Part shown: positions 1 to 10,933 of the stretch, one piece after another | How positions within the stretch are numbered: the stretch's first letter is position 1 | How the letters are laid out: every line of letters begins with the position of its first letter | Position numbers and translations under genes: made by a program | Notes under the pieces: model-generated | Seen by the model: the letters and a program-made list of their open reading frames with translations, nothing else | Database searches by the model: none | What the model was told of the DNA's origin: nothing | Assembly: GCA_020850915.1 (NCBI GenBank) | Contig: JADZDV010000190.1 | Coordinates: forward strand, 1 to 10,933 | DNA from: Chloroflexota bacterium | Lineage (GTDB): Bacteria > Chloroflexota > UBA6077 > JADZDV01 | Reading direction: 5' to 3' | Length of the DNA: 10,933 nt

Positions 1-143
1 GCCGGATACTGGCCGTCCCCGATCGGTCGATAGACGTCGGCGCGCAGGACAATGCCGTCGTTCATCGGGATCGGTACGTGGAAGTCGACCGTCATCCCAT
101 CCCGGATCTCGGTTCGCTCGTTGACCTGGACCGTCTGGCTCAC
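1..143 (-). CDS. CocE/NonD-type alpha/beta hydrolase, N-terminus (partial)
   Basis: Only the first 47 codons are in the window; the gene runs off the left edge. The reverse strand reads from a GTG at 143 into the segment VPIPMNDGIVLRADVYRP (residues 23-40), followed by IGDGQYP. This matches the opening of the CocE/NonD family (cocaine esterase, X-Pro dipeptidyl-peptidase S15 domain, alpha-amino-acid ester hydrolase), where a beta strand with 'DGxxLRADVYRP' precedes the alpha/beta-hydrolase core. A GGAG lies 8 bases upstream of the GTG and supports it over the in-frame ATG at 95, which would remove 16 residues. The catalytic Ser, Asp and His lie outside the window, so activity and substrate (ester or amide) cannot be judged. 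No signal peptide is visible, so the protein is probably cytoplasmic. Family call from recognition of the N-terminal motif only. Confidence 0.72.
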   Translation of the reverse strand, partial: MSQTVQVNERTEIRDGMTVDFHVPIPMNDGIVLRADVYRPIGDGQYP

Positions 144-714
144 AGTGACAACTCCAACCCCACCCGACGAGCGGGCAGCTTGCAGGTGGTCCGAGCGGGC
201 GATCCTGGCATGGGAGCGCCGACTGGTGGGTGTCAGGCGCTCGGACGTCGCGTGGAATTGTAGAGTCGTCAGCCTGGACCCGAACAGGCGATCGAGCGCG
301 CGTCTGCCCGGGCCAGCCATCGCAAGCGCCGATGCGCCGCCGTGAATGCCGTCGATGCCAGCCCCGCGGCGGCCGCTCGTCACCGCTTGAAGTCCTCCGG
401 ACGCATTCGAGTGCCAGTCCTCCAGGAGAGCGCATCGTGGGACTGGCGCCGGGATCTGCCGCGCCCATGGCCAGGCGGTGCCTCCATGGCGGAATCGTGA
501 CGAGCAGCAGCCGAATTCGGCAGGTCTCGCCTCCCAGCCGGTACGGGACTTGCGCTCGTCTCGGGCGAATTGGCAGCGCGTCGCCCCGCGCCCGAGCGGT
601 CGCGGCGCACGCTGGTGACTGGCAGTGGTCGTATCTCGTGTTCGGAACCCGCGATGCGCCTGGTCGGAGGAGGGCGTCCGCGTGGTGAGTTCGTATCGGT
701 CGGTGGAGGATCCT
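144..714. other. 571-base gap without a convincing gene
   Basis: Reading frames here (for example 230-688 on +) translate to Arg/Ala/Ser-rich sequence with no recognisable domain and look like GC-driven open frames. A TACAAT on the reverse strand (257-262) could be a -10 box for the hydrolase at 1-143, about 110 bases from its start, but I find no good -35 for it. Towards 660-710 there are two purine-rich Shine-Dalgarno-like runs that belong to the gene starting at 715. I see no RNA gene, terminator or repeat. Confidence 0.5.
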
Positions 715-1536
715 GTGCTTCGTTGGTCTGTCCTCATCATCTCCACCCTGGCGCTCGCCGGCGCCACGGCGTTCGCCGGGCGACCGGCGCCCGCCGAGGC
801 GCAGCCGGCAGGCTGCATCTTCCAGCTCGGCTTCGAGACCCTGCACGACATGATCCCCGACATCGTCGGGGACTGCATCGAGAACGAGTGGCACAACGCC
901 GAGAACGGCGACGGGCTCCAGCGCACCACGCACGGCCTCGAGGTGTGGCGCAAGTCCGACAACTGGACCGCCTTCACCGACGGCTACATGACCTGGGTCA
1001 ACGGCCCCTTCGGCCTTCAGGCGCGTCTGAACACCGAGCGCTTCCCATGGGAAGGTGACGCGGCAGTGCCCGCGCTGCCGAGCAGCGCTCCTTCGAGCGG
1101 CGCTGGCGCGGCCACCGGCGGCGCGGCCGGTGGCGGCACGACGGCCACGTCGACGCCAACCACCAGCGATAATCCGCCCGACCTGGACCTCCACCTCTCG
1201 GATGACACTGTCGATCAGAACGCGACGTTCCAGCTCCGCCTGACGGCGACCGACGACGATGGCGTCGACGCGATGTGGTGGTGGGCGACCAGCACCAGCG
1301 ACCAGAGCCTGCGGGACACCCACACCATCGATTGTCACGGTGCGACCCCTTGTCGCCAGACCTTCAATCTGAGCACGAGCGACACCGGCACCATTACATT
1401 CCACGCCGTGGCGCGTGACATGGCCGGCAACACACGAGACGAAGTCGTTGACGACCTCCGTGTTCGCTCGGCTGCCGCGACCGCCACACCGACCCCGACA
1501 CCCGTGCCGACCGCGACGCCCACCAGGACGCCTTGA
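715..1536 (+). CDS. Secreted protein: Chloroflexota-type domain plus Ig-like domain
   Basis: The 273-residue product has a signal peptide (residues 1 to about 29, hydrophobic core 6-21, AEA before Gln30). A compact Trp-rich domain (about 34-113) follows, with two Cys (34, 54), the stretch HDMIPDIVGDC and the ending RLNTERFPWE. I associate this domain with exported proteins of Chloroflexota; its function is not known to me. A Ser/Ala/Gly/Thr linker (about 114-152) leads to a beta-rich segment with 'TATDDDGVDAMWWWA' and 'FHAVARDMAGNTRDE', which resembles Ig-like or PKD-like extracellular folds. The C-terminus is a Thr/Pro repeat. There is no LPXTG motif or C-terminal membrane helix. Start: GTG at 715 with GGAGG 5 bases upstream. 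GTG at 682, also with a good Shine-Dalgarno, would add 11 residues before the signal peptide and is the main alternative. It ends convergently with the DUF922 gene. Probably an extracellular binding or adhesion protein, by inference only. Confidence 0.72.
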   Translation: MLRWSVLIISTLALAGATAFAGRPAPAEAQPAGCIFQLGFETLHDMIPDIVGDCIENEWHNAENGDGLQRTTHGLEVWRKSDNWTAFTDGYMTWVNGPFGLQARLNTERFPWEGDAAVPALPSSAPSSGAGAATGGAAGGGTTATSTPTTSDNPPDLDLHLSDDTVDQNATFQLRLTATDDDGVDAMWWWATSTSDQSLRDTHTIDCHGATPCRQTFNLSTSDTGTITFHAVARDMAGNTRDEVVDDLRVRSAAATATPTPTPVPTATPTRTP

Positions 1537-1571
1537 CCAGGACGTCCGAAGCGCGCGACGACCGCGTCCCA

Positions 1572-1603
1572 GAACAGCGCCTCCCCCTCCGGAGGCGCTG
1601 TTC
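1572..1603. terminator. Bidirectional hairpin between convergent genes
   Basis: A perfect 13-bp inverted repeat (GAACAGCGCCTCC at 1572-1584, its complement at 1591-1603) with a 6-base loop lies between the tail-to-tail genes ending at 1536 (+) and 1656 (-). It has no T-run, so termination efficiency is uncertain, but its position and perfection fit a terminator shared by both genes. Confidence 0.6.
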
Positions 1604-1655
1604 CGCTGCCCAGCGAGGGTGAGGACCCGGCGTTCCCGGCGCCGCGGGCGCGGGG

Positions 1656-2480
1656 TCAGGGGAAGACAGCCCCCTGCGTTGCGCCGTGTTCGGTGTCCCG
1701 GTCGTACGCCGCCTGGAGATCCGAGTAGCGCGCGACGACCGCGCGGCCGGCCGAGTCGGCGGCGCGGTCGAGGTCGCCACACGACAGGTACATGCCGAGG
1801 CCGCTCAGCGCTTTCAGCAGCTCCGGCCCGGCTTGCAGCGCGATCGTCTCGTGGCCAGCTTCGTGATCCCGCAGTCCGCCAAGGAAGCGATCCCAGCGAT
1901 CAACCAGTCGCCGCGAAGCTGACGAGGGCTCCGTCCAGCGCGGCAGCGTCGTGATGACGCTGAGCTTGACCGTCATCGGTCCAGCAGCGCAGCGGCTGCC
2001 CAGGTCCACGTGCGGAAACGTCCAGGTCGCTCCCCAGTCGACGCTCGCCGACCACTCCTGACCGTCTTCACGCGGGCCGCCGCGGTTCATCCGCTCCAGG
2101 AGCTGCCGCTCGTTGGCACCGGTCACGTCGTAGTACGTCGTCGCGCGGCTGACCTGCACCGTCCCGGCGCCTCCGGCGCCAAACGCGGGCGCCTGGACCG
2201 GGTACGCTGGCCCGCCTCGGTAAGGGGGACCGGTGAGCGTCGTCGAAGTCGTCGCTGGCACGGTCCAGCTCCCCTGTCCGGAAGCATCAACCGTCGCGCC
2301 TGATGACGTAGCGGATTGGTCCTGGTCAGAGCCAGGCTCAGCGCTGGGCGGCGCGTCGCTCCCCGAGGACTGCGCGAGGGCTGGCACCCCCGCGACGCCC
2401 GAGAAGAGCGTGACAACCGCGAAGAGTGAGGACAGGACGAGCCTGGGCTCGAAGCTGCGCACCCGCCGGGACCCTGTCAT
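1656..2480 (-). CDS. DUF922 predicted secreted zinc protease
   Basis: The 274-residue product has a signal peptide (core about 14-32; PALA before Gln37) and a low-complexity Ser/Asp/Gly/Pro-rich spacer to about residue 105. The rest fits the DUF922 family (predicted secreted Zn-dependent protease): TYYDVTG (115-121), NxxGP (132-136), a central LPRW (179-182), the zinc-binding HEAGH (206-210) and a C-terminal YDRDTEHG (259-266). His206 and His210 would bind zinc with Glu207 as general base; His265 in the conserved TxHG is a likely third ligand. Cys164 and Cys234 could form a disulfide outside the cell. Start: ATG at 2480 with GAGG 5 bases upstream. It is divergent from the cupredoxin gene and convergent with the secreted-domain gene. 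Substrate unknown; proteolytic activity is predicted from the motif, not demonstrated for this protein. Confidence 0.85.
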   Translation of the reverse strand: MTGSRRVRSFEPRLVLSSLFAVVTLFSGVAGVPALAQSSGSDAPPSAEPGSDQDQSATSSGATVDASGQGSWTVPATTSTTLTGPPYRGGPAYPVQAPAFGAGGAGTVQVSRATTYYDVTGANERQLLERMNRGGPREDGQEWSASVDWGATWTFPHVDLGSRCAAGPMTVKLSVITTLPRWTEPSSASRRLVDRWDRFLGGLRDHEAGHETIALQAGPELLKALSGLGMYLSCGDLDRAADSAGRAVVARYSDLQAAYDRDTEHGATQGAVFP

Positions 2481-2581
2481 TGGAACCTCAGGCCGTCAGA
2501 CCAGACATCGGCACTCCGGTTCCTACGCGGTCCGCCAGCCATCGTGGCGCACAGTCCCGGGAGTCGGAAGGGCCGTGCGTC

Positions 2582-2646
2582 ATCATACACCGATCCAGGG
2601 GACGACCGTCCAGCGGCCCGTGAGTCAGTTGGTCGCACGCTAGAAT
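2582..2646. promoter_or_regulatory. Divergent promoter region (two -10 candidates)
   Basis: The 205-base gap between divergent starts contains a TATGAT on the reverse strand (2582-2587), facing the DUF922 gene, and a TAGAAT on the forward strand (2641-2646), facing the cupredoxin gene about 40 bases from its start. Both match the sigma-A -10 consensus at 5 of 6 positions, but neither has a good -35 at 16-18 bases, so they are weak or activator-dependent at best. Confidence 0.3.
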
Positions 2647-2685
2647 CGGCTGGAAGCGCCGCCCGCGACGGCCACCGGAGCGAGA

Positions 2686-3318
2686 TTGAAGCACGTGCCC
2701 ATCCCGTCACTGTCTGGAGCCCCGCGTCTGACGCGCCGCCGGCTGCTCCGCCTGGTTGGGATCGCCGCGGCCGCCCTCGCCAGCAGCCTCGCGGCCAGTT
2801 GCATCTCCTACGTGGGCCGCGAGCCCGTCACACCGAGCCCTCCGCCGAAGCCGGTCGTGCCGCCACCGCCCACCAGCGCGAGGCCCTCGCCAGTCGCCGT
2901 GCCCAGCCCCAGCCCGGGCCCCAGCCCTACGCCGATCCCAGGGCCGTCTGGCATCTTCAGCGGCAGCGCCCCGCTCGTCTCGCGACCGTCGCCCGGCGCC
3001 AGCGGCAGCGAGCGGTTCGTAACGATCCGCCTGACGGACACGCTGCTGTTCGTGCCTGGCAATCAGACCGTCCCGGTCGGCACGACGGTCCTCTGGGTGA
3101 ACTCCAGCGCCCAACCCCACACGATTACCGCCGACCGAAGCAAGGCGGCGGACCCGGCCCACGTGGAGCTGCCGCCCGGCGTGGAGCCATTCGACGCCGG
3201 ACAGGTAGCCCCTGGTCAGACGTGGTCCCGTCTGTTCGACGTGCCCGGTCAGTATGCTTATGTCTGCCTCAATCATGAAGCGTTCGGCATGCCCGGCCGA
3301 ATCACGGTCACCGGCTGA
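2686..3318 (+). CDS. Exported type I copper protein (plastocyanin/azurin-like cupredoxin)
   Basis: The 210-residue product starts at TTG 2686 with GGAG 5 bases upstream; no better start keeps the signal. The N-terminus has a Tat-like twin-arginine region (TRRRLLRLVGIAAAAL, residues 16-31) ending in a Cys (LAASC, Cys39) that could be lipidated, although Ala at -3 is a poor lipobox. A Pro/Ser-rich spacer (about 47-105) precedes a cupredoxin domain (about 109-209). All four type I copper ligands are visible: His145 in QPHTIT, then Cys194, His197 and Met202 in YVCLNHEAFGMPG. The C-x2-H-x4-M spacing is the plastocyanin one. It is likely a small extracytoplasmic electron carrier or copper-binding protein tethered to the membrane. 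No partner oxidase or reductase is in the window. It is convergent with the nitrile hydratase operon across a strong hairpin. Confidence 0.88.
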   Translation: MKHVPIPSLSGAPRLTRRRLLRLVGIAAAALASSLAASCISYVGREPVTPSPPPKPVVPPPPTSARPSPVAVPSPSPGPSPTPIPGPSGIFSGSAPLVSRPSPGASGSERFVTIRLTDTLLFVPGNQTVPVGTTVLWVNSSAQPHTITADRSKAADPAHVELPPGVEPFDAGQVAPGQTWSRLFDVPGQYAYVCLNHEAFGMPGRITVTG

Positions 3319-3371
3319 GCGCGGCGACGCCCTGCCGCGGGAGGTGTACCAGGGACCAGGCGTCGCCGCGC
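3319..3371. terminator. Perfect 13-bp convergent hairpin
   Basis: GCGCGGCGACGCC (3319-3331) is exactly complementary to 3359-3371, leaving a 27-base loop with further small pairings (CCCTG 3330-3334 with CAGGG 3350-3354 in an alternative register). It starts immediately after the cupredoxin stop codon and ends 4 bases from the stop of the nitrile hydratase alpha gene, so it can serve both strands. No U-tract is present. Confidence 0.6.
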
Positions 3372-3375
3372 GCAC

Positions 3376-4032
3376 CTATACCCTGACGGCGCTCGGCTCC
3401 AGCGGCTGGGTCACGCCGACCAGACTGTCCCGCGTCACGAGCCTCGCGAGCTCCTCCTCCGACCAGCCCTCCGTCCCCGCCGGGCGGACCGGCAGGACGA
3501 GGTAGCGGAGGTCTGCCGAGCTATCGCAGACCCGGACCTCCACGTCGTCAGGGACGGTCTGGCCAAACTCGGCCACCACCGCCCGCGGCTCCACGACAAC
3601 GCGCCGTCGGTAGTTCAGGCTCTTGTACCAGTCTGGTGGCCGGCCCAGGATCTGGCGCGGATAGCAGGAGCAGAGGGTACAGACCACCACGTGGCGCAGC
3701 TTGTCCGTGTTCTCCAGGATCATGAACTCGTTGATCCCGCTGGCGTCGATCCCCATCTCCAGACAGGCCGTCTTTGAGTCGGTGAGCAGGCGCTGCTTGA
3801 ACGACGGATCGACCCAGGCGCGGGCCACCAGGCGGGCGCCGTTGAGCGGCGAGCGCGCCTCGATATAGTCGATCTCCTGCTGAATGTCCTCCTCGGTCAC
3901 CAGGCCCCGCTCGACGAGCAGCTCGCGGATCGCGTAGATCCGCTTGCCCCAGAACGGGACCACGTTCCTCGGATGCGGGTGGCCGTGCTCGTCGCGGCCC
4001 GTTTCGTGGCCGTTGCCATGCTCCCCACTCAC
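3376..4032 (-). CDS. Cobalt-type nitrile hydratase alpha (or thiocyanate hydrolase gamma) subunit
   Basis: This 218-residue subunit carries the metal centre that hydrates a nitrile to an amide (or hydrolyses thiocyanate in the sister enzyme). The signature VCTLCSC (117-123) places Cys118, Cys121 and Cys123 as ligands with Ser122. Thr119 in place of Ser indicates cobalt rather than iron. In the family the second and third Cys are oxidised to sulfinic and sulfenic acid. Other family blocks: FWGKRIYAIRELL (27-39), LGRPPDWYKS (129-138), VVEPRAVVAEFG (146-157), RVCDSSADLRY (167-177), LPVRPAGTEGW (180-190) and LVTRDSLVGV (198-207). After the centre it reads CYPRQ, where the nitrile hydratases I recall have CYPWP. 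The N-terminus is His-rich (residues 5-20), which is unusual. ATG at 4032 overlaps the upstream stop by 4 bases (ATGA), implying translational coupling. It is the last gene of the operon; no activator gene follows it here. Confidence 0.93.
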   Translation of the reverse strand: MSGEHGNGHETGRDEHGHPHPRNVVPFWGKRIYAIRELLVERGLVTEEDIQQEIDYIEARSPLNGARLVARAWVDPSFKQRLLTDSKTACLEMGIDASGINEFMILENTDKLRHVVVCTLCSCYPRQILGRPPDWYKSLNYRRRVVVEPRAVVAEFGQTVPDDVEVRVCDSSADLRYLVLPVRPAGTEGWSEEELARLVTRDSLVGVTQPLEPSAVRV

Positions 4033-4340
4033 GCCGCCCCTCCTTCGTCCACTGGCTCCAGCCAGCTCTCGAACACATCGACGAACAGCTTGTCACCATG
4101 CGCCGGCGCGCCCGGACCCCAGATCTCCTCCTGACGGAACCCAACCATGTAGAGCGGCGTCTCCGGCAGCCCGCTGCGCGCGTAGGCCAGCTCCTCCGGG
4201 TGGGGGAACGCGCCGTGGTAGTGCTCGATCCAGCCCCGCTTGCCGCGCACATAGAACGGCGTCCGGATGTGCCCCGGCGGATCAGCGAACCTCACGCGCA
4301 CCGCCTCTCCCAGCTTGAAACGCGCCGCCACCGTACTCAT
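4029..4340 (-). CDS. Stand-alone C-terminal half of nitrile hydratase beta subunit
   Basis: The 103-residue product corresponds to the C-terminal, SH3-like beta-barrel domain of nitrile hydratase beta. It contains FKLGEAVRVRF (8-18), PPGHIRTPFYVRGKRGWI (21-38), FPHPEE (45-50), the LYMVGF strand (63-68) and VDVFESWLEP (87-96). Arg26 in GHIR corresponds to the beta Arg (Arg141 in the Rhodococcus iron enzyme) that hydrogen-bonds the oxidised cysteines of the alpha subunit. Full-length beta is usually a little over 200 residues in one chain; here the N-terminal half is a separate upstream gene. Start: ATG at 4340, overlapping the upstream stop in ATGA; an in-frame GTG at 4352 is less likely. Downstream it overlaps the alpha gene by 4 bases. 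Split beta chains are known in thiocyanate hydrolase (ScnA) and some three-subunit nitrile hydratases. This one keeps the nitrile-hydratase-like GHIR motif. Confidence 0.88.
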   Translation of the reverse strand: MSTVAARFKLGEAVRVRFADPPGHIRTPFYVRGKRGWIEHYHGAFPHPEELAYARSGLPETPLYMVGFRQEEIWGPGAPAHGDKLFVDVFESWLEPVDEGGAA

Positions 4341-4645
4341 GGCTCCCCCCACCGCGCCTCGAGGTCGGCCGTCTTCCGATCGATCTCTTCCTTCGTCAGA
4401 TAGCCCTTCTCGATCAGGATCGCCTCGATGCCGTAGATCCAGCGCTCGTAGTAGGTGATGTCCGGATACAGGTCCGGCGGCATGTCCTCCCGTGCGCGCC
4501 GATGCTCGTCGAGGTTCCTGATCCCCCGCGCGTACAGCGCCATCGTGAGACCGTCCGCCAGCACCTCCCAGTCCGCGAGCTGGTGCTCAGAGCGGTCGAT
4601 GGGGCCCGGTCCGGGCCGCCCACCCTGGTCGTGCGCTCTCGCCAT
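4337..4645 (-). CDS. Stand-alone N-terminal half of nitrile hydratase beta subunit
   Basis: The 102-residue product starts with AHDQGGRPGPGPIDRSE, the pattern of the nitrile hydratase beta N-terminus (HDxGGxxGxGP). A Trp-Glu follows (WE, 26-27), then the helical region NLDEHRRAREDM (44-55) and YYERWIYGIEAILIEKGYLT (65-84). The first Arg of DEHRR (residue 49) aligns with the conserved beta Arg56 of the Rhodococcus enzyme, which contacts the modified cysteines. It ends at the point where the C-terminal domain would begin in a normal beta subunit. Start: ATG at 4645 with GGAGGT 9 bases upstream; a TTG at 4678 would add 11 residues but has no Shine-Dalgarno. Nitrile hydratase activator proteins (P14K/NhlE type) also resemble beta N-termini, but the HDxGG start and the adjoining C-terminal-half gene favour a structural subunit. 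First gene of the operon; ATGA overlap with the next. Confidence 0.85.
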   Translation of the reverse strand: MARAHDQGGRPGPGPIDRSEHQLADWEVLADGLTMALYARGIRNLDEHRRAREDMPPDLYPDITYYERWIYGIEAILIEKGYLTKEEIDRKTADLEARWGEP

Positions 4646-4771
4646 CGCCCGTCCACCTCCAACCGACGGCTCGCGCAAGCCGTCGAGATGCCGGTGATCC
4701 TAACAGGGTGAGGATGCGCTCTGGCGGAACTCCGGCCAGCCACGCAGCCGCTCACGGGCCACGCAGCTCCC

Positions 4772-4801
4772 TTGACCGGTCCCTCTGGGCAGGGCTATCG
4801 T
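4772..4801 (+). promoter_or_regulatory. Sigma-A-type promoter for the flavin reductase
   Basis: TTGACC (4772-4777, 5 of 6 to consensus) is followed after 18 bases by TATCGT (4796-4801, 4 of 6). Transcription would start near 4808, giving a leader of about 75 bases before the GTG at 4884. It lies in the gap shared with the divergent nitrile hydratase operon, for which I see no comparably good promoter. Confidence 0.5.
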
Positions 4802-4883
4802 GCCCTCTCCGGGCGCTCGCCGCGACGATCCGGCGCGCGCATCGTCTCCGCGCCCCGGCCACCTTTCCCCTGGAGCCAACATC

Positions 4884-5387
4884 GTGGATCCGAACGCGAG
4901 GAAGACCGCCCTACGGATGATCCCCTACGGCCTGTACATCCTGACCGCCCAGCGCTCGGATGGCGAGGTGACCGCGGCCACCGTGAACTGGGTCACCCAG
5001 GCCTCCTTCGAGCCGCCGCTCGTCGCCGTCGGCGTGAAGACCGACTCGCACGGTTACGGCATCATCAAGGAGACCGGCGCGTTCGCCCTGAACGTTCTGG
5101 GTAAGGGTCAGCAGGGGCTCGCCTTCGCCTTCTTCAAGCCCGCCGAGCGCCAGGGCGACACGATCTCCGGCGAGCCGTTCCACGCCGGCGCAACAGGCGC
5201 CCCGATCCTGGAGAACACCCCGGCCTTCGTGGAGTGTCGCCTGGTGGAGTCGATCGAGCGCGGCGACCACGCCGTCTTCGTGGGTGAGGTCGTGGACGCG
5301 GGCGTCGCCAGCGCGCCGGAGGGCCGTCCGGACGACGCCACCCTCCTGCTGAAGGATCTCGGCGAACGGGTTTTCTACGGCGGCTGA
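4884..5387 (+). CDS. Flavin reductase-like FMN-binding protein
   Basis: The 167-residue product belongs to the flavin reductase-like family (split-barrel FMN-binding fold). Visible blocks: IPYGLYILTA (13-22), ATVNWVTQASFEPPLVAVGV (32-51, the FMN phosphate/isoalloxazine region), GAFALNVLGKGQ (65-76) and, later, ERGDHAVFVGEVVDAG. Members reduce free FMN/FAD with NAD(P)H for a partner oxygenase, or bind FMN for other redox work. No oxygenase partner is in the window. Start: GTG at 4884 with TGGAG 8 bases upstream. Frames opening at 4800 would add a Pro/Arg-rich tail unlike the family, so the shorter form is preferred; its length is normal for the family. It is divergent from the nitrile hydratase operon and convergent with the next gene, 16 bases apart. 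A functional link to nitrile hydratase is possible but not shown. Confidence 0.88.
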   Translation: MDPNARKTALRMIPYGLYILTAQRSDGEVTAATVNWVTQASFEPPLVAVGVKTDSHGYGIIKETGAFALNVLGKGQQGLAFAFFKPAERQGDTISGEPFHAGATGAPILENTPAFVECRLVESIERGDHAVFVGEVVDAGVASAPEGRPDDATLLLKDLGERVFYGG

Positions 5388-5394
5388 GCCGACC

Positions 5395-5412
5395 ACTGGC
5401 GCCCTAGCCAGT
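5395..5412. terminator. Short hairpin at the convergent junction
   Basis: ACTGGC (5395-5400) pairs with GCCAGT (5407-5412) around a 6-base loop. It sits in the 16-base gap between the flavin reductase stop and the end of the reverse-strand gene, overlapping that gene's stop codon. The 6-bp stem has no U-tract, so it is a weak candidate. Confidence 0.3.
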
Positions 5413-5967
5413 CTGCTTCGGTGCCCGCTCCTGGAACGCGCGGTCGAGCAGCCTGTCGATCCGCGCCTGCAAGGTCTGCAGCCGTGTCTTCTCCTGGTCC
5501 GCCGTCAACCGGCCCTTCTGCACCAGCCGGTCCAGGTGTGCCTGCCTGGCGGAGAGGATGGCCGACCGGATCGCCTCGCGGCTCTTGCCGTTCTCCGCGC
5601 CGATCTGCGCGATCGTCTTGCCCTGCTGCAAGCCCTTCACGATGGTGTCGGCCGACGTGCCGAGAATCGGCGCCAGCCGGTCCGCGTGGGTTGCCAGCCG
5701 TGCCTGGAACATCGCGTCGCGAAGCTTGTCCTGGGAAATGCCGAGCGCCGTGGAGAGATGCCCCAGGAAGCCCTGCTGACCCGCGCGCTGTCCGCGCTTC
5801 TCCCCTGCGCCCTGCTGCTTCGCTGAAGGCGTCGGCGTCGCCGCGGCAGTCGCGCTGGTTGCCTGTGCCGCGACCTGCCGCGACTGCATAAGAAAGGGAG
5901 CGGCTCCGCCGCTGACAACGAGCACCGCGCCCAGAACGGCCGCTGTCTTACTACGCCACGATTTCAT
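5404..5967 (-). CDS. Small exported helical protein of unknown function
   Basis: The 187-residue product has a Lys/Arg n-region (MKSWRSK), a hydrophobic core (about 9-27) and AQA before Thr37, a typical Sec signal. A Thr/Pro/Ala and Lys/Gln-rich spacer (37-65) precedes a helical domain (about 67-178). The domain contains 'LSTALGISQDKLRDAM' (71-86), 'GLQQGKTIAQIGAENGKSREAI' in two overlapping pieces (112-133), and a final amphipathic helix 'KTRLQTLQARIDRLLDRAF' (160-178). The pattern 'GISxDKL ... GKTIAQIGxxxGKS ... GRLTADQ' resembles small secreted proteins of Gram-positives and Chloroflexota that repeat a short helix-turn-helix unit; I know no function for them. Start: ATG at 5967 with GGTGG 7 bases upstream. 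The frame opens at 6036, but that start would bury the signal peptide behind 23 polar residues. Confidence 0.72.
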   Translation of the reverse strand: MKSWRSKTAAVLGAVLVVSGGAAPFLMQSRQVAAQATSATAAATPTPSAKQQGAGEKRGQRAGQQGFLGHLSTALGISQDKLRDAMFQARLATHADRLAPILGTSADTIVKGLQQGKTIAQIGAENGKSREAIRSAILSARQAHLDRLVQKGRLTADQEKTRLQTLQARIDRLLDRAFQERAPKQTG

Positions 5968-6026
5968 TGACGGACCACCGATCTCCGAACCTGCCGAATT
6001 GAGCGCTCCCCGTTCGAGGGCCTCTT

Positions 6027-6048
6027 CAGAGAGCATACGAGCCCTCTG
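6027..6048. repeat. Imperfect inverted repeat, operator-like
   Basis: CAGAGAGC (6027-6034) pairs with GCCCTCTG (6041-6048) at 7 of 8 positions around a 6-base centre. It lies about 60 bases upstream of the exported-protein start (5967, reverse strand), where an operator could sit. No regulator is identified. Confidence 0.3.
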
Positions 6049-6305
6049 TAAAACAACTGCTAAACGCCGGTCAGATTCTCATAAGACTCCCACCTTCGGC
6101 AATCGTTAGAGAGCACCCGTTGTGCTGGCCCATCGCCCACTCTATCGCTCTCGAAGCTGTTCATCCTGCCCGCCGACGCCCGGCCGCTCAGCCGCTACGC
6201 CCCCAAGCTCCCTCTGGCCTGCGCGCTGATCGCCCGCGCATTCGGCAGCTCGCCCACGGGCGCCAGATGGCGGCGCCGTCAGACCGCGCCATTCCCGCTT
6301 TACCA

Positions 6306-6411
6306 CGGGTGCGACCGACTTGTGTTGAAGCCACCGGTAGGGGCGGAGCAACGACACGGCAACATCTTTCGGGCTCACCCCTGTGCCGGGTGCGACCGAC
6401 GTGTGTTGAAA
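6306..6411. repeat. Two direct copies of a 25-base repeat
   Basis: Copies at 6306-6330 and 6387-6411 both begin CGGGTGCGACCGAC, differ at one internal base (T versus G), then share TGTGTTGAA and differ at the last base (G versus A). The spacing start to start is 81 bases. They sit in non-coding sequence and look like members of a dispersed intergenic repeat family. Only two copies with unequal flanks are seen, so this is not a CRISPR array. Confidence 0.65.
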
Positions 6412-6427
6412 CGGCCGTTGTAGGAGC

Positions 6428-6496
6428 GGCGCTTGCTGCGCCCGTGCAACAGCGGAGACGACTGTATCGGGGCCTGCAGGCGCAGCAAGCAGCGCC
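6428..6496. repeat. Long inverted repeat with nested hairpins
   Basis: GCTTGCTGCGCC (6431-6442) is exactly complementary to GGCGCAGCAAGC (6479-6490), with a 36-base loop. Each arm also folds on itself: GGCGC/GCGCC around TTGCT at 6428-6442, and GGCGC/GCGCC around an 8-base loop at 6479-6496. The flanks (TAGGAGCGG on one side, CGCCCCTGCC on the other) extend the similarity imperfectly. This fits a REP- or MITE-like mobile palindrome; the orientation is undetermined. Confidence 0.6.
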
Positions 6497-6555
6497 CCTG
6501 CCGATCTGGCGACCACGCTGCAACATGGTTCGGGCGCAACACCTTGCCGCTTTGC

Positions 6556-6584
6556 TTGACAGGTCGTATTCATCTCCCTATGCT
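6556..6584 (+). promoter_or_regulatory. Near-consensus sigma-A promoter of the Rid operon
   Basis: TTGACA (6556-6561) matches the -35 consensus exactly. After an ideal 17-base spacer comes TATGCT (6579-6584), 4 of 6 to the -10 consensus with T1, A2 and T6 conserved. Transcription would begin near 6591, leaving a leader of about 113 bases before the ATG at 6704. No operator is obvious, though the inverted repeat at 6428-6496 lies just upstream. Confidence 0.75.
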
Positions 6585-6703
6585 AGGAACGACCCCCAGC
6601 ACCCAGACCAGAACGCGCGGAGTGTTCGGTGGATCCACGTTTGACGATCGCGGGAGGTAGGCTCACGGACGGTTAGTACGCCGATAGACCAGGGGAGGGC
6701 GAG

Positions 6704-7984
6704 ATGGATGTCCAGTTCCTGTACAGCGCGGAGCTGCCACGACCGGCCACGCACCAGCCTCACGCCACGCGGGCCGGCGATTTCATCTTCACGTCGTCAA
6801 TCTACCCGCTCGATACGGAGAGCGGACTCGTCGTCCAGGCGGACGAGACATACCAGTACGTGCGCGAGTCGCACGCTGAAGCGCAGTCCAGACGCTGTCT
6901 GGAGACGCTGCGCAAGACCCTTGAAGGGACGGGTTCATCCCTCAGCAATGTGCTGAGGGTGGAAGTCCACCTGGCGCGACCAGAGGATTTCCTCGATTTC
7001 AAGCTCGTCTGGCAGGAGTACTTTCCCAGCGAGCCCCCGGCGCTCACGGCCACCGAGGTTGGCGACGAGCATATCTACCCCGGCGCCCTGCTGAACCTTC
7101 ACGCCGTCGCCCTGGCGAACGACTCCAGCTACCGCCGCGAGGTGATCCGCGCCGACGACGCCCCGAGCCTGAGCGATGCCATGGGCGCCTCGCAGGCGGT
7201 CAGAGCCGGCCCGTTCGTCTTCCCGTCCGCGGTCCCCGCGACCGACTTCGTCAGCGGCATCGCCGCGGGGAGGCGCCCCGGGTTCCCGAACTACGGCTCT
7301 GACGCCGAGATGCAGGCTCAGTACCACTTCCAGCAGCTCAACAGAGTCCTCGCGAAAGCCGGCACCTCGCTGGAGCAGGCGGTGGAAGCGCAGCTCTACG
7401 AGCCCGACCTCAGCACCTTCCACGATGTCGACGGCATCTGGGGCCAGTCTTTGCCAACCCCGCCGCCGCGCAGCTCGATGGGCATGAAAGGCCTGCTCGT
7501 CCCCGGCGCCCTGATGGTCGCGAACCTCATCGTCCTGGTCCCAGACGCCGAGCATCAGAAGACGGAGTCGCGCGCCGGGATCCATTACCACCCGGTGGAC
7601 GTCCGCAAGGTCAACTTCTCGCCGACCATCAAGGCGGGCCCCTGGCGGTTCCTCGCCGGCCAGGTCGCCACTCCGGACATGATGTCGGTTCACAACGCCC
7701 CGCCAGGCCTGCCCTACTATTTCTCCGACATCGAAGTCCAGACGCGCTTCACCATGGGTCGCCTCAGGGAGCAGCTCGAGGCGAACGACAGCGATCTCGC
7801 CCACGTCTTCGACGCCAGAGTGTTCCTGCTCTATCCGCGCAGGGATTACCGCGGCTTCGAGCGGGCCTGGCGCACCTTCTTCCCCAACCCGGACCGGTCG
7901 CCGGCCCTGGCCCTCATACCATCGACCGGCATCATGTTCCCCGGACCGATCATCGAGATCGACCTGTCTGCCGTTGCACGCTGA
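6704..7984 (+). CDS. Triple RidA-domain protein with degenerate active sites
   Basis: The 426-residue chain is three RidA (YjgF/YER057c/UK114) domains in tandem: about 5-138, 144-281 and 297-425. RidA proteins deaminate reactive enamines/imines as homotrimers. Each domain keeps structural marks (RAGxFIF or KAGPWRF near the start; a GTSLEQAVEAQ-like helix; VWQEYFP or AWRTFFP; a final PGAL/PGPI strand). The catalytic pair equivalent to E. coli Arg105 and Glu120 is broken everywhere. Domain 1 has Ala113 and Asn131. Domain 2 keeps Arg256 in PPPRSS but has Val272 for Glu. Domain 3 keeps Glu418 in IIEID but has PALAL where Arg is expected. The Tyr17 equivalent is also lost (His20 in domain 1, Phe305 in domain 3). 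Start: ATG at 6704, GGGGAGGG 4 bases upstream. First gene of the operon, 43 bases before its paralogue. It may be a binding, regulatory or partner subunit rather than a deaminase. Confidence 0.88.
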   Translation: MDVQFLYSAELPRPATHQPHATRAGDFIFTSSIYPLDTESGLVVQADETYQYVRESHAEAQSRRCLETLRKTLEGTGSSLSNVLRVEVHLARPEDFLDFKLVWQEYFPSEPPALTATEVGDEHIYPGALLNLHAVALANDSSYRREVIRADDAPSLSDAMGASQAVRAGPFVFPSAVPATDFVSGIAAGRRPGFPNYGSDAEMQAQYHFQQLNRVLAKAGTSLEQAVEAQLYEPDLSTFHDVDGIWGQSLPTPPPRSSMGMKGLLVPGALMVANLIVLVPDAEHQKTESRAGIHYHPVDVRKVNFSPTIKAGPWRFLAGQVATPDMMSVHNAPPGLPYYFSDIEVQTRFTMGRLREQLEANDSDLAHVFDARVFLLYPRRDYRGFERAWRTFFPNPDRSPALALIPSTGIMFPGPIIEIDLSAVAR

Positions 7985-7987
7985 CTC

Positions 7988-8008
7988 TCGCTCGTCTGGA
8001 ACGAGCGA
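7988..8008 (+). other. Small perfect hairpin between the two Rid genes
   Basis: TCGCTCGT (7988-7995) pairs perfectly with ACGAGCGA (8001-8008) around CTGGA, 4 bases after the first Rid gene's stop. It lacks a U-tract and sits directly before the next Shine-Dalgarno (GAGGAGGG, 8017-8024), so it is better read as an mRNA-stability or partial-attenuation element than as a full terminator. Confidence 0.4.
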
Positions 8009-8027
8009 TCGGAGCTGAGGAGGGCTG

Positions 8028-9332
8028 ATGACGATGATGCCGACGACGTTGCGGAAAGAGACGATCACTTCGGAGCGCGTCCCGAAGCCGCTGGCCAACT
8101 ACTGCCAGGCGGTCCGGGCCGGGCAGTTCCTGTTCCTGGCTGGCCAGCTCGCCAGCGACTACCAGACGGGCATCCCGGCAGAAGCTCGACGCAATCCCGA
8201 GTTCCCCTCCTATGGCTCGGACATCGAGCTCCAGACGCGCTACATCCTGCGCAACATCGGAGAGGTGCTGGAAGCCGGCGGCAGCTCTTTCGACCAGGTG
8301 GTCAAGGCGCAGGTGTTCCTCCAGGACCGGCGCGACTTCGATGGCTTTGACCGGGTCTGGAAGGAGTTCTTCGGCGACAATCCGCCGCCTCGAACGACGA
8401 TCCAGATGGGTCGACCGGCCCTGCTGGTGCCCGGCGCGCTGGTCGAGATCGATCTGATCGGGCTAGTGAAAGACAGCGGCGTGAAAAAGGAGGTCATCCG
8501 TTCATCCGACCTGGTAATGCCGCTGGTGAACTACGTGCCGGTCGTGCGAGCTGGCCAGTTCGTCTTCGCGGCGGGACAGGTCGCTTCGGACTTCAAGACG
8601 GGCGTGGCAGCAGCCGCGAAGGTCCCGGAGGCCTTTCCCTACTACGGCTCCAGCATCGAGCGCCAGACCCGCTACACCCTGGAGAACCTCAAGCGGACCT
8701 TTGCCGCCGCGGGCAGCTCGCTGGACAACGTCGTGAAGGCCCAGGTGTTCCTCACCAGCCTGGCGTTGTTCGACGAGTTTGACGACGTCTGGAATGAGTA
8801 CTTCCCCTCCCCACCGCCACGGACGACGGTGCAGTGCGGCGCCATTCTGAACCCGGACTGTCTGCTCGAGATCGATCTGATCGGGATCGTGCCCGGCAAC
8901 GGGGTGCAGCGGGAGGTCATTCGAGCAGAGGGCTGCCCAGCGCCGCTCGCGAATTACGCCCAGGCGATCAAAGCCGGCCCGTACGTCTTCCTGGCCGGGC
9001 AACTGGCCAGCGACTTCCAGCACGGCGTTGCGCCCGAGGCGCGGGTCGACCCGAATTTCAAGTGGTATGGGTCAGACATCCGCAAGCAGACCGAGTACAT
9101 CCTGAGGAACTGCGAGAAGGTCCTGACCGCCGCTGGCAGCAGCCTGGACCAGGTTGTCAAGGCGCAGGCGTTCCACACCAACCTGGACAACTTCTATCAG
9201 TTCGACCGAGTCTGGAAACGGTTCTTCCCGGCGCCGCCTCCCAGGACGACCATCCAGACCGATGGCGACGGTCTCCTGGTGCCCGGCGCGCTGGTGGAGA
9301 TCGACCTGATCGGCCTCGCGCCAGGCGGCTGA
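8028..9332 (+). CDS. Triple RidA-domain protein with three intact catalytic pairs
   Basis: The 434-residue chain has three RidA domains (about 9-148, 152-288, 294-432), a repeat period of about 142 residues, each unit opening with K/R-E-V/T-I. Each keeps the RidA catalytic Arg in PPPRTT (Arg122, Arg265, Arg406), the Glu equivalent to E. coli Glu120 in V/L-EIDLIG (Glu140, Glu281, Glu424), the Tyr17 equivalent in NY (Tyr25, Tyr169, Tyr310) and the Gly31 equivalent in AGQ (Gly39, Gly183, Gly324). E. coli Asn88 is Asp in all three and Cys107 is Thr, so the substrate may differ from 2-aminoacrylate. Repeats 1 and 3 share a 20-base identical stretch (8424-8443, 9276-9295), a sign of internal duplication or gene conversion. 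Start: ATG at 8028 with GAGGAGGG 3 bases upstream; ATG at 8034 or 8037 has more usual spacing. It probably acts in the cytosol as an imine/enamine deaminase; the substrate is unknown. Confidence 0.92.
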   Translation: MTMMPTTLRKETITSERVPKPLANYCQAVRAGQFLFLAGQLASDYQTGIPAEARRNPEFPSYGSDIELQTRYILRNIGEVLEAGGSSFDQVVKAQVFLQDRRDFDGFDRVWKEFFGDNPPPRTTIQMGRPALLVPGALVEIDLIGLVKDSGVKKEVIRSSDLVMPLVNYVPVVRAGQFVFAAGQVASDFKTGVAAAAKVPEAFPYYGSSIERQTRYTLENLKRTFAAAGSSLDNVVKAQVFLTSLALFDEFDDVWNEYFPSPPPRTTVQCGAILNPDCLLEIDLIGIVPGNGVQREVIRAEGCPAPLANYAQAIKAGPYVFLAGQLASDFQHGVAPEARVDPNFKWYGSDIRKQTEYILRNCEKVLTAAGSSLDQVVKAQAFHTNLDNFYQFDRVWKRFFPAPPPRTTIQTDGDGLLVPGALVEIDLIGLAPGG

Positions 9333-9402
9333 GGCCACCACAGCGCCCCGGCGACGCGTGGTCCGCATCGCCGGGGTCCGAGCGGTCAAGACGGTGGCCG
9401 TC
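9333..9402 (+). other. Nested hairpins between Rid and binding-protein genes
   Basis: In the 104-base gap, CCCCGGCGA (9346-9354) pairs perfectly with 9368-9376 around a 13-base loop. An outer pair GGCCACC (9333-9339) matches GGTGGCC (9393-9399). A competing small hairpin GACGG-TGG-CCGTC (9390-9402) shares the outer right arm. There is no U-tract. Such structures before a binding-protein gene commonly set segment-specific mRNA stability or partial read-through; that role is an inference here. Confidence 0.45.
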
Positions 9403-9436
9403 AGGCCCCCCAACGGGACGACGAAGGAGGACTCCC

Positions 9437-10750
9437 GTGCGTCGCTCAACTTCCCCACTGCTCATCCTGAGCTCGATCCTGGCTCTCACCCTGATCCTGG
9501 CCGGCTGCGCGCCCGCCGCGGCGCCGAGTCCAGCGCCAGCCTCCAAGCCGGCGGCCCCTCCGGCCGCGGCGCCCGCCACCTCCGCGCCCGCCACCGCGGC
9601 GCCCAAGCCGGCGGCGGCACCTCCCGCCGCCCCGGCAGCGCCGGCGGCACCCGCCGCGACAACCGCGCCCGCCGCGGCCAAGCCTCCCGCCGCGGCAGCG
9701 GTCACCGGCCCGATCAAGATCGGCCATTTCGCTCCGATGAGCGGCGACGCCGCGGTTGACGGGCAGAACGCCAGGGACGGCGTCAACCTGTACATCGACG
9801 AGGTGAACGCCAGCGGTGGCGTGCTCGGCCAGAAGATCGAAGTCATTCACGAGGACGACGCCGGCAAGCCGGAGCAGGCGGTCAACATCTGCAACAAGTT
9901 CGTCAGCCAGGACAAGGTCGCCGTGGTGATTGGCGGCGTCAGCAGCCCCACCTCGCTGGCCTGCTCCGAAGTCACCAGGAAGGCTGAGACACCTCAGATC
10001 ATCACCTCCGGCACCGCCGCGCGGATCACACAGCTCGGGAACCCATTCATCTTTCGCATTCCCGCGCCAGACACCCAGCTCGGCATCGACGTCGCTCAAT
10101 ACGCCAAGAAGCGAGGCTGGGCGAAGATCGGCATCATCCACGTCAACGACGACTTCGGCAACGGTGGCGCCAAGGCCGTGACCGACGAGGCCGAGAAGCT
10201 CGGGGGATCGGTGGTAGCCAACGAGTCCTACGCCCGTGGAGATAAAGACTTTACCGCTCAGCTCGCCAAGATCAAGCGCGCCCAGCCGGACGTGCTCGTG
10301 GACTGGTCCCGCTACACCGAAGGATCGCTCATCGCCAAGCAGAAGCTCGATCTTGGCATCTCCGCGCCGCTCATGAGCAGTGAGAGCGCCGGCTCGCCCG
10401 CGTACTTGCAGCTCGGCGGTGACGCCGCCAACGGCGTGATTTTCGCGACCCACTGGTACCCCGGCTTGCCCGAGCCGACCTCGAAGGCGTTCATCGACGC
10501 CTTCCAAAAACGGTACAACCGCATGCCAGACTACTCCGCCGCCCAGGCGAACTCGGCGTCGCGTGCCGCGGTCGACGCGATCAAGCGCGCCGGCTCGATC
10601 GATCACCAGAAGATCCGGGATGCGCTGGCCGCGACCAGCAATCTGGAGACGCCCAAGGGCAAGCTCTCGTTCAAACCGAACGGGGATCCCACGTACGGCT
10701 CGTTCATCGTCCAGATCAAGAACGGCACGATCGTCAAAGTCGACGACTGA
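9437..10750 (+). CDS. ABC transporter substrate-binding lipoprotein, branched-chain amino acid type
   Basis: The 437-residue lipoprotein has positively charged MRRS, a hydrophobic core and a clean lipobox LAGC (Cys24). A 66-residue Ala/Pro/Lys/Thr linker (25-90) tethers a type I periplasmic binding fold of the LivK family (Peripla_BP_6), about 92-437. Characteristic blocks: IKIGHFAPMSGDAAVDGQ in its first strand, 'GGVLGQKIEVIHEDDAGKPE', 'VVIGGVSSPTSLACSEV', 'WAKIGIIHVNDDFGNGG' and 'AFQKRYNRMPDYSAAQANS'. The family binds branched-chain amino acids, amides, urea or aromatic acids; the sequence does not decide which. Start: GTG at 9437 with GGAGG 6 bases upstream. The same frame stays open back to 8834, but that is read-through inside the Rid gene. 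A LivH-type permease follows after 23 bases, and the Rid gene precedes it by 104 bases, so it is in the Rid operon. Confidence 0.93.
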   Translation: MRRSTSPLLILSSILALTLILAGCAPAAAPSPAPASKPAAPPAAAPATSAPATAAPKPAAAPPAAPAAPAAPAATTAPAAAKPPAAAAVTGPIKIGHFAPMSGDAAVDGQNARDGVNLYIDEVNASGGVLGQKIEVIHEDDAGKPEQAVNICNKFVSQDKVAVVIGGVSSPTSLACSEVTRKAETPQIITSGTAARITQLGNPFIFRIPAPDTQLGIDVAQYAKKRGWAKIGIIHVNDDFGNGGAKAVTDEAEKLGGSVVANESYARGDKDFTAQLAKIKRAQPDVLVDWSRYTEGSLIAKQKLDLGISAPLMSSESAGSPAYLQLGGDAANGVIFATHWYPGLPEPTSKAFIDAFQKRYNRMPDYSAAQANSASRAAVDAIKRAGSIDHQKIRDALAATSNLETPKGKLSFKPNGDPTYGSFIVQIKNGTIVKVDD

Positions 10751-10773
10751 GCTCACACGGAGGGGCACGCCGG

Positions 10774-10933
10774 ATGGACGAGATCCTGCTGCAGCAGATC
10801 ATCGGGGGCATCGCGATCGGCGTCATCTACGGCCTGGTCGCGGTCGGCTTCAGCATGCTCATCCGGGCGATGGACCTGATCAACTTCGCCCAGGGCGAGA
10901 TGCTGATGATCGGCGGCCTGGTTGGCTATACGC
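10774..10933 (+). CDS. LivH-type ABC permease, N-terminus (partial)
   Basis: The first 53 codons are present; the gene runs off the right edge. It opens MDEILLQQIIGGIAIGVIYG (1-20), then a first membrane helix continuing to about residue 30 and the family signature INFAQGEMLMIGG (37-49), equivalent to the 'INFAHGE' of LivH-like inner-membrane permeases of the branched-chain amino acid/urea ABC class. ATG at 10774 has GGAGGGG 8 bases upstream. It lies 23 bases after the binding-protein gene. The LivM permease and the LivG/LivF ATPases would be expected next, outside the window. Confidence 0.92.
   Translation, partial: MDEILLQQIIGGIAIGVIYGLVAVGFSMLIRAMDLINFAQGEMLMIGGLVGYT

Follow-up and report, generated by a model that had tools for sequence, protein, structure and literature searches.

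What becomes of a RidA trimer when its three subunits are fused into one chain? The three pockets of a RidA trimer are identical, so that evolution cannot alter one of them alone, and fusion lifts this limit. The question is raised by a locus of a Chloroflexota bacterium (assembly GCA_020850915.1, contig JADZDV010000190.1, positions 1 to 10,933), a stretch of 10,933 nucleotides that we call the window. Here two adjacent genes on the forward strand each encode a 3x-Rid protein, that is, three RidA domains in a single chain. P1 (6704..7984, 426 amino acids) and P2 (8028..9332, 434 amino acids) both start with ATG and have open frames, with a gap of 43 bp between them. P2 is of a symmetric type, whereas P1 is asymmetric and has one complete pocket at most.

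A first-pass annotation of this DNA had proposed that the two proteins contain three RidA domains each, and both a Pfam domain search and our own domain model confirmed it. In the Pfam scan (24736 models; E-values are for the whole protein), PF01042 matched three stretches in P1 (E 2.5e-32) and three in P2 (E 5.8e-73), far beyond chance. The scores of 111.8 bits (P1) and 243 bits (P2), against a curated cut-off of 27.3, place both proteins in the Rid superfamily. Our own model was seeded with the window domains and single RidA sequences, so that its E-values are not independent; it delimits domains at residues 1-140, 143-281 and 288-426 of P1 and at residues 8-149, 152-290 and 293-433 of P2. 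Identity is 53-62% among the three P2 domains, 22-24% among those of P1 and 26-43% between P1 and P2 domains. P2 scores 215.2 bits with TIGR00004, a model of Rid family detoxifying hydrolases, over its curated cut-off of 106.25; P1 scores 76 bits, under it. With the RutC model TIGR03610 both proteins are under the cut-off of 169.1 bits (P1 60.1, P2 145.7).

The first-pass annotation did not know this architecture as characterised. It has already been named in print: 3x-RidA, a RidA subset with three domains fused in tandem, is exemplified by EF_0115 of Enterococcus faecalis, is presumed to consist of covalently linked trimer units, and is accompanied by rare fusions of two or four domains, according to the passages seen of Niehaus et al. 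2015 (PMC4433059). P1 and P2, with three tandem RidA domains per chain, are 3x-RidA proteins, and the core of the finding has already been published, if briefly. What stands of the claim is that our literature searches found no functional study. The passages of PMC4433059 available to us give no residue-by-domain analysis, function or gene context of 3x-RidA.

In TdcF, the pocket between subunits is lined by seven conserved residues, Tyr17, Gly31, Asn56, Asn88, Arg105, Pro114 and Glu120. Every ligand observed is bonded by Arg105, which Asn88 may orient, and Glu120 reaches across the interface to bond with the main chain of residue 107 (PMC1884159, in part). In plant RidA the pocket Glu is supplied by the neighbouring subunit, and replacing the Arg with Ala leaves 2.2% activity (PMC4960622, in part). 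Taken together, these data show that each pocket combines an Arg half (positions 88, 105 and 107), supplied by one subunit, with a Glu half (positions 17, 31 and 120) supplied by the next.

P2 has both halves in all three domains. Tyr, Gly, Asp, Arg and Glu are present in each of them (R122, R265 and R406; E140, E281 and E424), and the same holds in 100 of 120 rows of the P2 family. Family counts here and below refer to the best 120 matches, out of 1675 for P2, 457 for P1 and 530 for a third family described below, and are biased to close relatives; each search scored 7996-7997 candidates, and P1 and P2 matches were counted at E 0.001. P2 resembles the RidA, TdcF and UK114 homotrimers in domain fold and pocket residues, retaining Tyr17, Gly31, Arg105 and Glu120 in every domain, but differs from them in being one chain instead of three and in having Asp for Asn88, Ala for Ser30 and Thr for Cys107.

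P1 differs further from the homotrimers. The catalytic Arg105, found in each P2 domain, is present in P1 only in domain 2 (R256), with L114 in domain 1 and L402 in domain 3. Domain 2 holds an Arg half (D243, R256, S258) and domain 3 a Glu half (F305, G319, E418). Across the P1 family, domain 1 has Arg105 (117/120) and Lys88 (118/120), with no Tyr, Gly or Glu at positions 17, 31 and 120; the domain-1 Arg is also lost in the window P1 (Leu114), P0123 (Ile) and P0124 (Leu). Domain 2 has Arg105, Asp88 and Ser107 in all 120 relatives, without Tyr or Glu (Gly31 in 35 of 120; position 120 unread in five). Domain 3 has Phe17 in 119 and Gly31 and Glu120 in 120 of 120, with Leu, Met or Val for Arg. Genome scans added ten full-length copies, nine from the metagenome-assembled genome (MAG) of Dehalococcoidia bacterium isolate Dino_bin39 (G002) and one from the MAG of Betaproteobacteria bacterium isolate LLD_097 (G001). 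In all ten, domains 1 and 2 have the Arg and domain 3 lacks it; nine have the domain 3 Glu, the other (G2g) having a gap there. Because the Glu half is found in domain 3 alone, at most one interface in the P1 family joins an Arg half and a Glu half, whatever the arrangement of the domains. Judged from these sequences and as far as our literature searches show, this complementary and conserved loss of pocket halves appears to be new.

A third large 3x-Rid family (L046:7623-8978 and proteins P0241-P0360) has an asymmetric pattern that differs from that of the P1 family. In the 119 proteins counted, one four-domain protein being left out, domain 1 has the Tyr, Gly and Glu with Ser for Arg, domain 2 has both halves, and domain 3 carries Glu where Tyr17 would be and again has Ser in place of the Arg.

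The first-pass annotation also read each chain as a covalent pseudo-trimer. The predicted single-chain models of both proteins are confident (predicted template-modelling score, pTM, 0.90 for P1 and 0.93 for P2). Along its whole chain the P2 model matches solved single-chain pseudo-trimers, well above every single-RidA match, while the chorismatase match of the P1 model spans residues 1-278 only (Z 19.5, tied with single RidA chains at 18.8). Structure prediction supports a single-chain RidA pseudo-trimer for each gene, better for P2 than for P1, and on these models both chains would close into this fold. The chorismatases FkbO and Hyg5 share the predicted arrangement, one chain with a RidA-like three-fold build, and have their catalytic Glu at the third-domain Glu120 position. 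They differ from P1 and P2 in sequence (12-16% identity in structural alignments), and their domain 2 is without the RidA Arg, as judged by eye. That P1 is itself a chorismatase was rejected, as TIGR04444 is absent from the NCBIfam matches of P1 and P2 at E up to 1.

Which domains form the one pocket of P1 depends on the direction of pairing. Where the Arg half of a domain i pairs with the Glu half of domain i+1, the pocket is at the domain 2/3 interface, and the window P1 has it intact; where the partner is domain i-1, the pocket lies between domains 1 and 3, and its Arg is lost in the window P1. The former is probably correct, which would make the pocket of Asp243, Arg256 and Ser258 together with Phe305, Gly319 and Glu418. 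A chorismatase homologue, L057 (genome G492; 209 bits with TIGR04444, under the cut-off of 325; E 6e-44 to FkbO), has a C-terminal VEID that aligns at the Glu120 position. Glu334 of Hyg5 is reported as essential and Gly164 of Nat-hyg5 as a subfamily-typical residue (PMC7170507, in part). By a constant offset of 9, the latter is Hyg5 Gly173 in FPAATGIG, which was taken as second-domain position 107 and would line the pocket. These chorismatase positions were counted for the i+1 pairing. Covariation was run between interface positions, in sets of our own choosing. The third family speaks for i+1 (mean difference 0.370, matched by 0/2000 random and 3.5% of shifted sets; 0.6% and 3.5% by the top-20 measure), as does, weakly, the P2 family (0.107; 1.0% and 2.7%; top-20 13% and 18%). 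In the P1 family it was uninformative on the pocket (0.048; 20% and 30%; top-20 62% and 57%).

Other observations weigh against this pairing. The plant RidA counterpart of Lys73 bridges to the neighbour's Glu at position 122, and in the P1 type Lys73 is kept in domain 1 (117/120) but replaced by Glu in domain 2 (114/120), which points to the opposite pairing. In the third family, a conserved Glu half of domain 1 and a conserved Arg half of domain 2 would come together in one pocket if the pairing ran the opposite way; with i+1 pairing, the Arg of domain 2 would meet the Glu that domain 3 has at position 17 (117/119).

How the two genes came to lie side by side is a separate matter. The first-pass annotation suggested fusion, then gene duplication and divergence, which our domain trees neither show nor exclude. 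That one fused gene was duplicated in tandem and then diverged seems to us unlikely, although the genes are adjacent and of the same architecture and, in a 32-row tree, one branch (99/96) separates all 27 fused domains from five single RidA sequences. Domains of P1 and P2 that hold the same position are ungrouped in both trees (75 and 32 rows), even if their grouping is not rejected (AU p 0.151, 0.412 and 0.480). The 75-row tree puts P1-type domain 1 beside single RidA sequences (92/79), and G001 carries the two types on separate contigs, neither neighbouring the other, with other neighbours. P2-type domains often cluster by protein or by lineage, e.g. within G1_P2 (100/100), which points to repeated triplication or homogenisation. 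In both trees P1-type domains 1, 2 and 3 form three long, well-supported branches, and a single clade of all P2 domains (p 0.343) or of all P1 domains (p 0.200) is not rejected. Instead of arising by local duplication, the P1 and P2 genes may come from two old families that were brought side by side.

Other proteins of similar size with three RidA domains proved to be many. Our own domain model found three domains in 120/120 listed P1 relatives and in 119/120 listed P2 relatives, which are 385-450 amino acids long except for P0003, a P2 relative of 557 amino acids with four RidA domains in one chain that was left out of the P2 per-domain counts. Where the organism is named, the listed relatives come from uncultured Alphaproteobacteria, Burkholderiales, Binatia or Rokubacteria. 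In genome surveys at E 1e-60, P1-type genes were found in 1/400 genomes of the phylum of G002, 1/398 of the phylum of G001 and 1/300 of the order of G001, each time the genome on which the survey was centred, and in G002 alone in its order. None was found in 385 genomes of the class of G003, a survey that had no positive control. The P2-type survey gave 1/299, again G001. In all surveys except that of the order of G002 only 4 to 6 first-look candidates were scored per genome, so that misses are possible. P1 had no match in plasmid records at E 1e-20. P2 matched RidA genes in 980 plasmid records; the 20 listed places span 327-471 bases, and no triple was present among the seven places examined, six annotated at 122-131 residues and the seventh (L054) unannotated. 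No relative was found in viral contigs. The P1-P2 adjacency probably recurs, as for P0122 (P1-type) and P0004 (P2-type) alike the longest contig is given as 10339 bases. G002 shows an expansion of the P1 type, with nine near-full-length and four partial matches, including three copies in a row at L039:5524-9781 and two at L040:6709-9414, and others on L041, L042, L043 and L003.

Downstream of P2, on the same strand, lies a gene for the substrate-binding protein of a branched-chain-amino-acid-type ABC transporter (Peripla_BP_6; 9437..10750; Pfam scan from 9440, start codon read by eye). It is followed by the start of a LivH-type permease gene (10774..10933) that is cut by the window end; its match to NF008011 (E 1.6e-8) is under the curated cut-off, since only about 58 permease residues were scanned. 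Ahead of its ligand-binding domain, the binding protein carries a LAGC motif that resembles a lipobox and a long stretch rich in Ala and Pro (9437-9700, by eye). The protein next to the P1-type gene of G001 that corresponds to it shares 46% identity over 346 residues. In G001 the P1-type gene lies within a transporter operon, in the order binding protein, P1-type, two BPD_transp_2 permeases, ATPase and second ATPase, the last judged by eye from its sequence start. In G002, whose neighbour genes were scanned selectively, an NMT1-type binding protein lies beside the P1 type at three of the six examined loci with full-length copies (L039, L041, L043) and a luciferase-like monooxygenase at three (L003, L040, L041); L041 also carries cyclases and amidohydrolases. 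The neighbours in G001 and G002 are uptake and breakdown genes for small organic compounds, which makes a thin context argument.

Upstream of P1, a flavin reductase gene (PF01613; 4800..5387, forward strand) is a possible but unproven partner. With the Rut pathway, whose RutC is a 3-aminoacrylate deaminase, the locus has in common the Rid domain and the nearby flavin reductase, and luciferase-like monooxygenases occur on contigs of some G002 3x-Rid genes. P1 and P2 differ from RutC in scoring below its model cut-off, and no luciferase-like monooxygenase was found among the ten window proteins scanned with Pfam. One sigma-70-like site (6556-6584) was found within 6400-9600, where shuffled sequences average 0.2; this is a consensus match and not evidence of use. 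A small protein with no Pfam match over cut-off is encoded at 5404-6036 on the reverse strand. Also on the reverse strand are a nitrile hydratase alpha gene (3376-4032), which passes the nitrile hydratase alpha cut-off and not that of thiocyanate hydrolase gamma, and a nitrile hydratase beta gene in two overlapping frames (4029-4352 and 4337-4678; C part PF02211, N part PF21006). This split may be a sequencing frameshift; it resembles thiocyanate hydrolase, which has separate alpha and beta subunits. A link between nitrile hydratase and P1 was not used, as these genes are on the opposite strand, about 2.0-3.3 kb away, and our literature search found no paper joining the RidA family and nitrile hydratase. 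Further upstream are a protein of the DUF922 family whose start resembles a signal peptide (PF06037, E 6.2e-38; 1656-2480, reverse strand) and a putative exported cupredoxin (PF00127, E 6e-11; 2686-3318, forward strand).

The sequences themselves show the domains, the residues, their conservation and the gene order; from these and from the predicted models we infer that the folds close, which two domains make the P1 pocket, the chemistry of both proteins and its link to the transporter substrate. We lean towards P2 being a three-site RidA-like deaminase and P1 a one-site enzyme, both acting in the breakdown of a compound imported by the transporter. P2, all three of whose inter-domain pockets keep the equivalents of Tyr17, Gly31, Arg105 and Glu120, with Asp for Asn88, would most likely deaminate imines or enamines. 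The complementary losses in the P1 family would leave one complete inter-domain pocket, most likely that of domains 2 and 3, and P1 would most likely act on a single, specific intermediate, an enamine, imine or enol that bears a carboxylate, with its other two interfaces mainly structural. The compound imported by the downstream ABC transporter may be nitrogen-containing or amino-acid-like; P2 would clear its imine or enamine intermediates, and P1 would handle a particular intermediate of the same path.

P1 could instead be catalytically dead, a structural or regulatory pseudo-enzyme or a small-molecule sensor, with P2 alone deaminating. This is improbable, as the six positions of the domain 2/3 pocket (88, 105 and 107; 17, 31 and 120) are invariant in 119-120 of 120 listed relatives. 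It is slightly easier to imagine, though still doubtful, that both proteins are ordinary fused RidA-type detoxifiers, in which the asymmetry of P1 reflects neutral decay and one, two or Arg-only sites suffice. P2 is indeed over the TIGR00004 cut-off (215 vs 106 bits), and mutants of known RidA proteins call for caution with the one-site reading of P1: Salmonella RidA can largely do without the Glu and Tyr, Ala at the Tyr17 and Glu120 equivalents having little effect (PMC4433059, in part), and plant RidA E180A keeps at least a quarter of its activity (PMC4960622, in part), so an Arg-only interface need not be dead. However, neutral decay does not readily account for losses that are near-identical across the listed P1-family members and that complement each other (domains 1 and 2 without their Glu halves, domain 3 without its Arg half), and P1 is under the TIGR00004 cut-off (76 vs 106).

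If P1 is a one-site enzyme, its family might be an unrecognised class that arose from a fused RidA trimer through complementary losses of pocket halves, in parallel to the chorismatases, and that carries out a specific committed step, as opposed to general detoxification, on a compound imported by the ABC transporter encoded alongside; we offer this tentatively. The asymmetric pattern of the third family suggests that such a route was taken more than twice. P1 and P2 stand side by side as asymmetric and symmetric versions of the same fused trimer, and comparing them would test directly whether a specialised one-site enzyme results when a trimer is fused, a course that the chorismatases may have followed. 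The function of P1 and P2 would also inform on part of a large group of proteins that, where named at all, are named only 'RidA family protein'.
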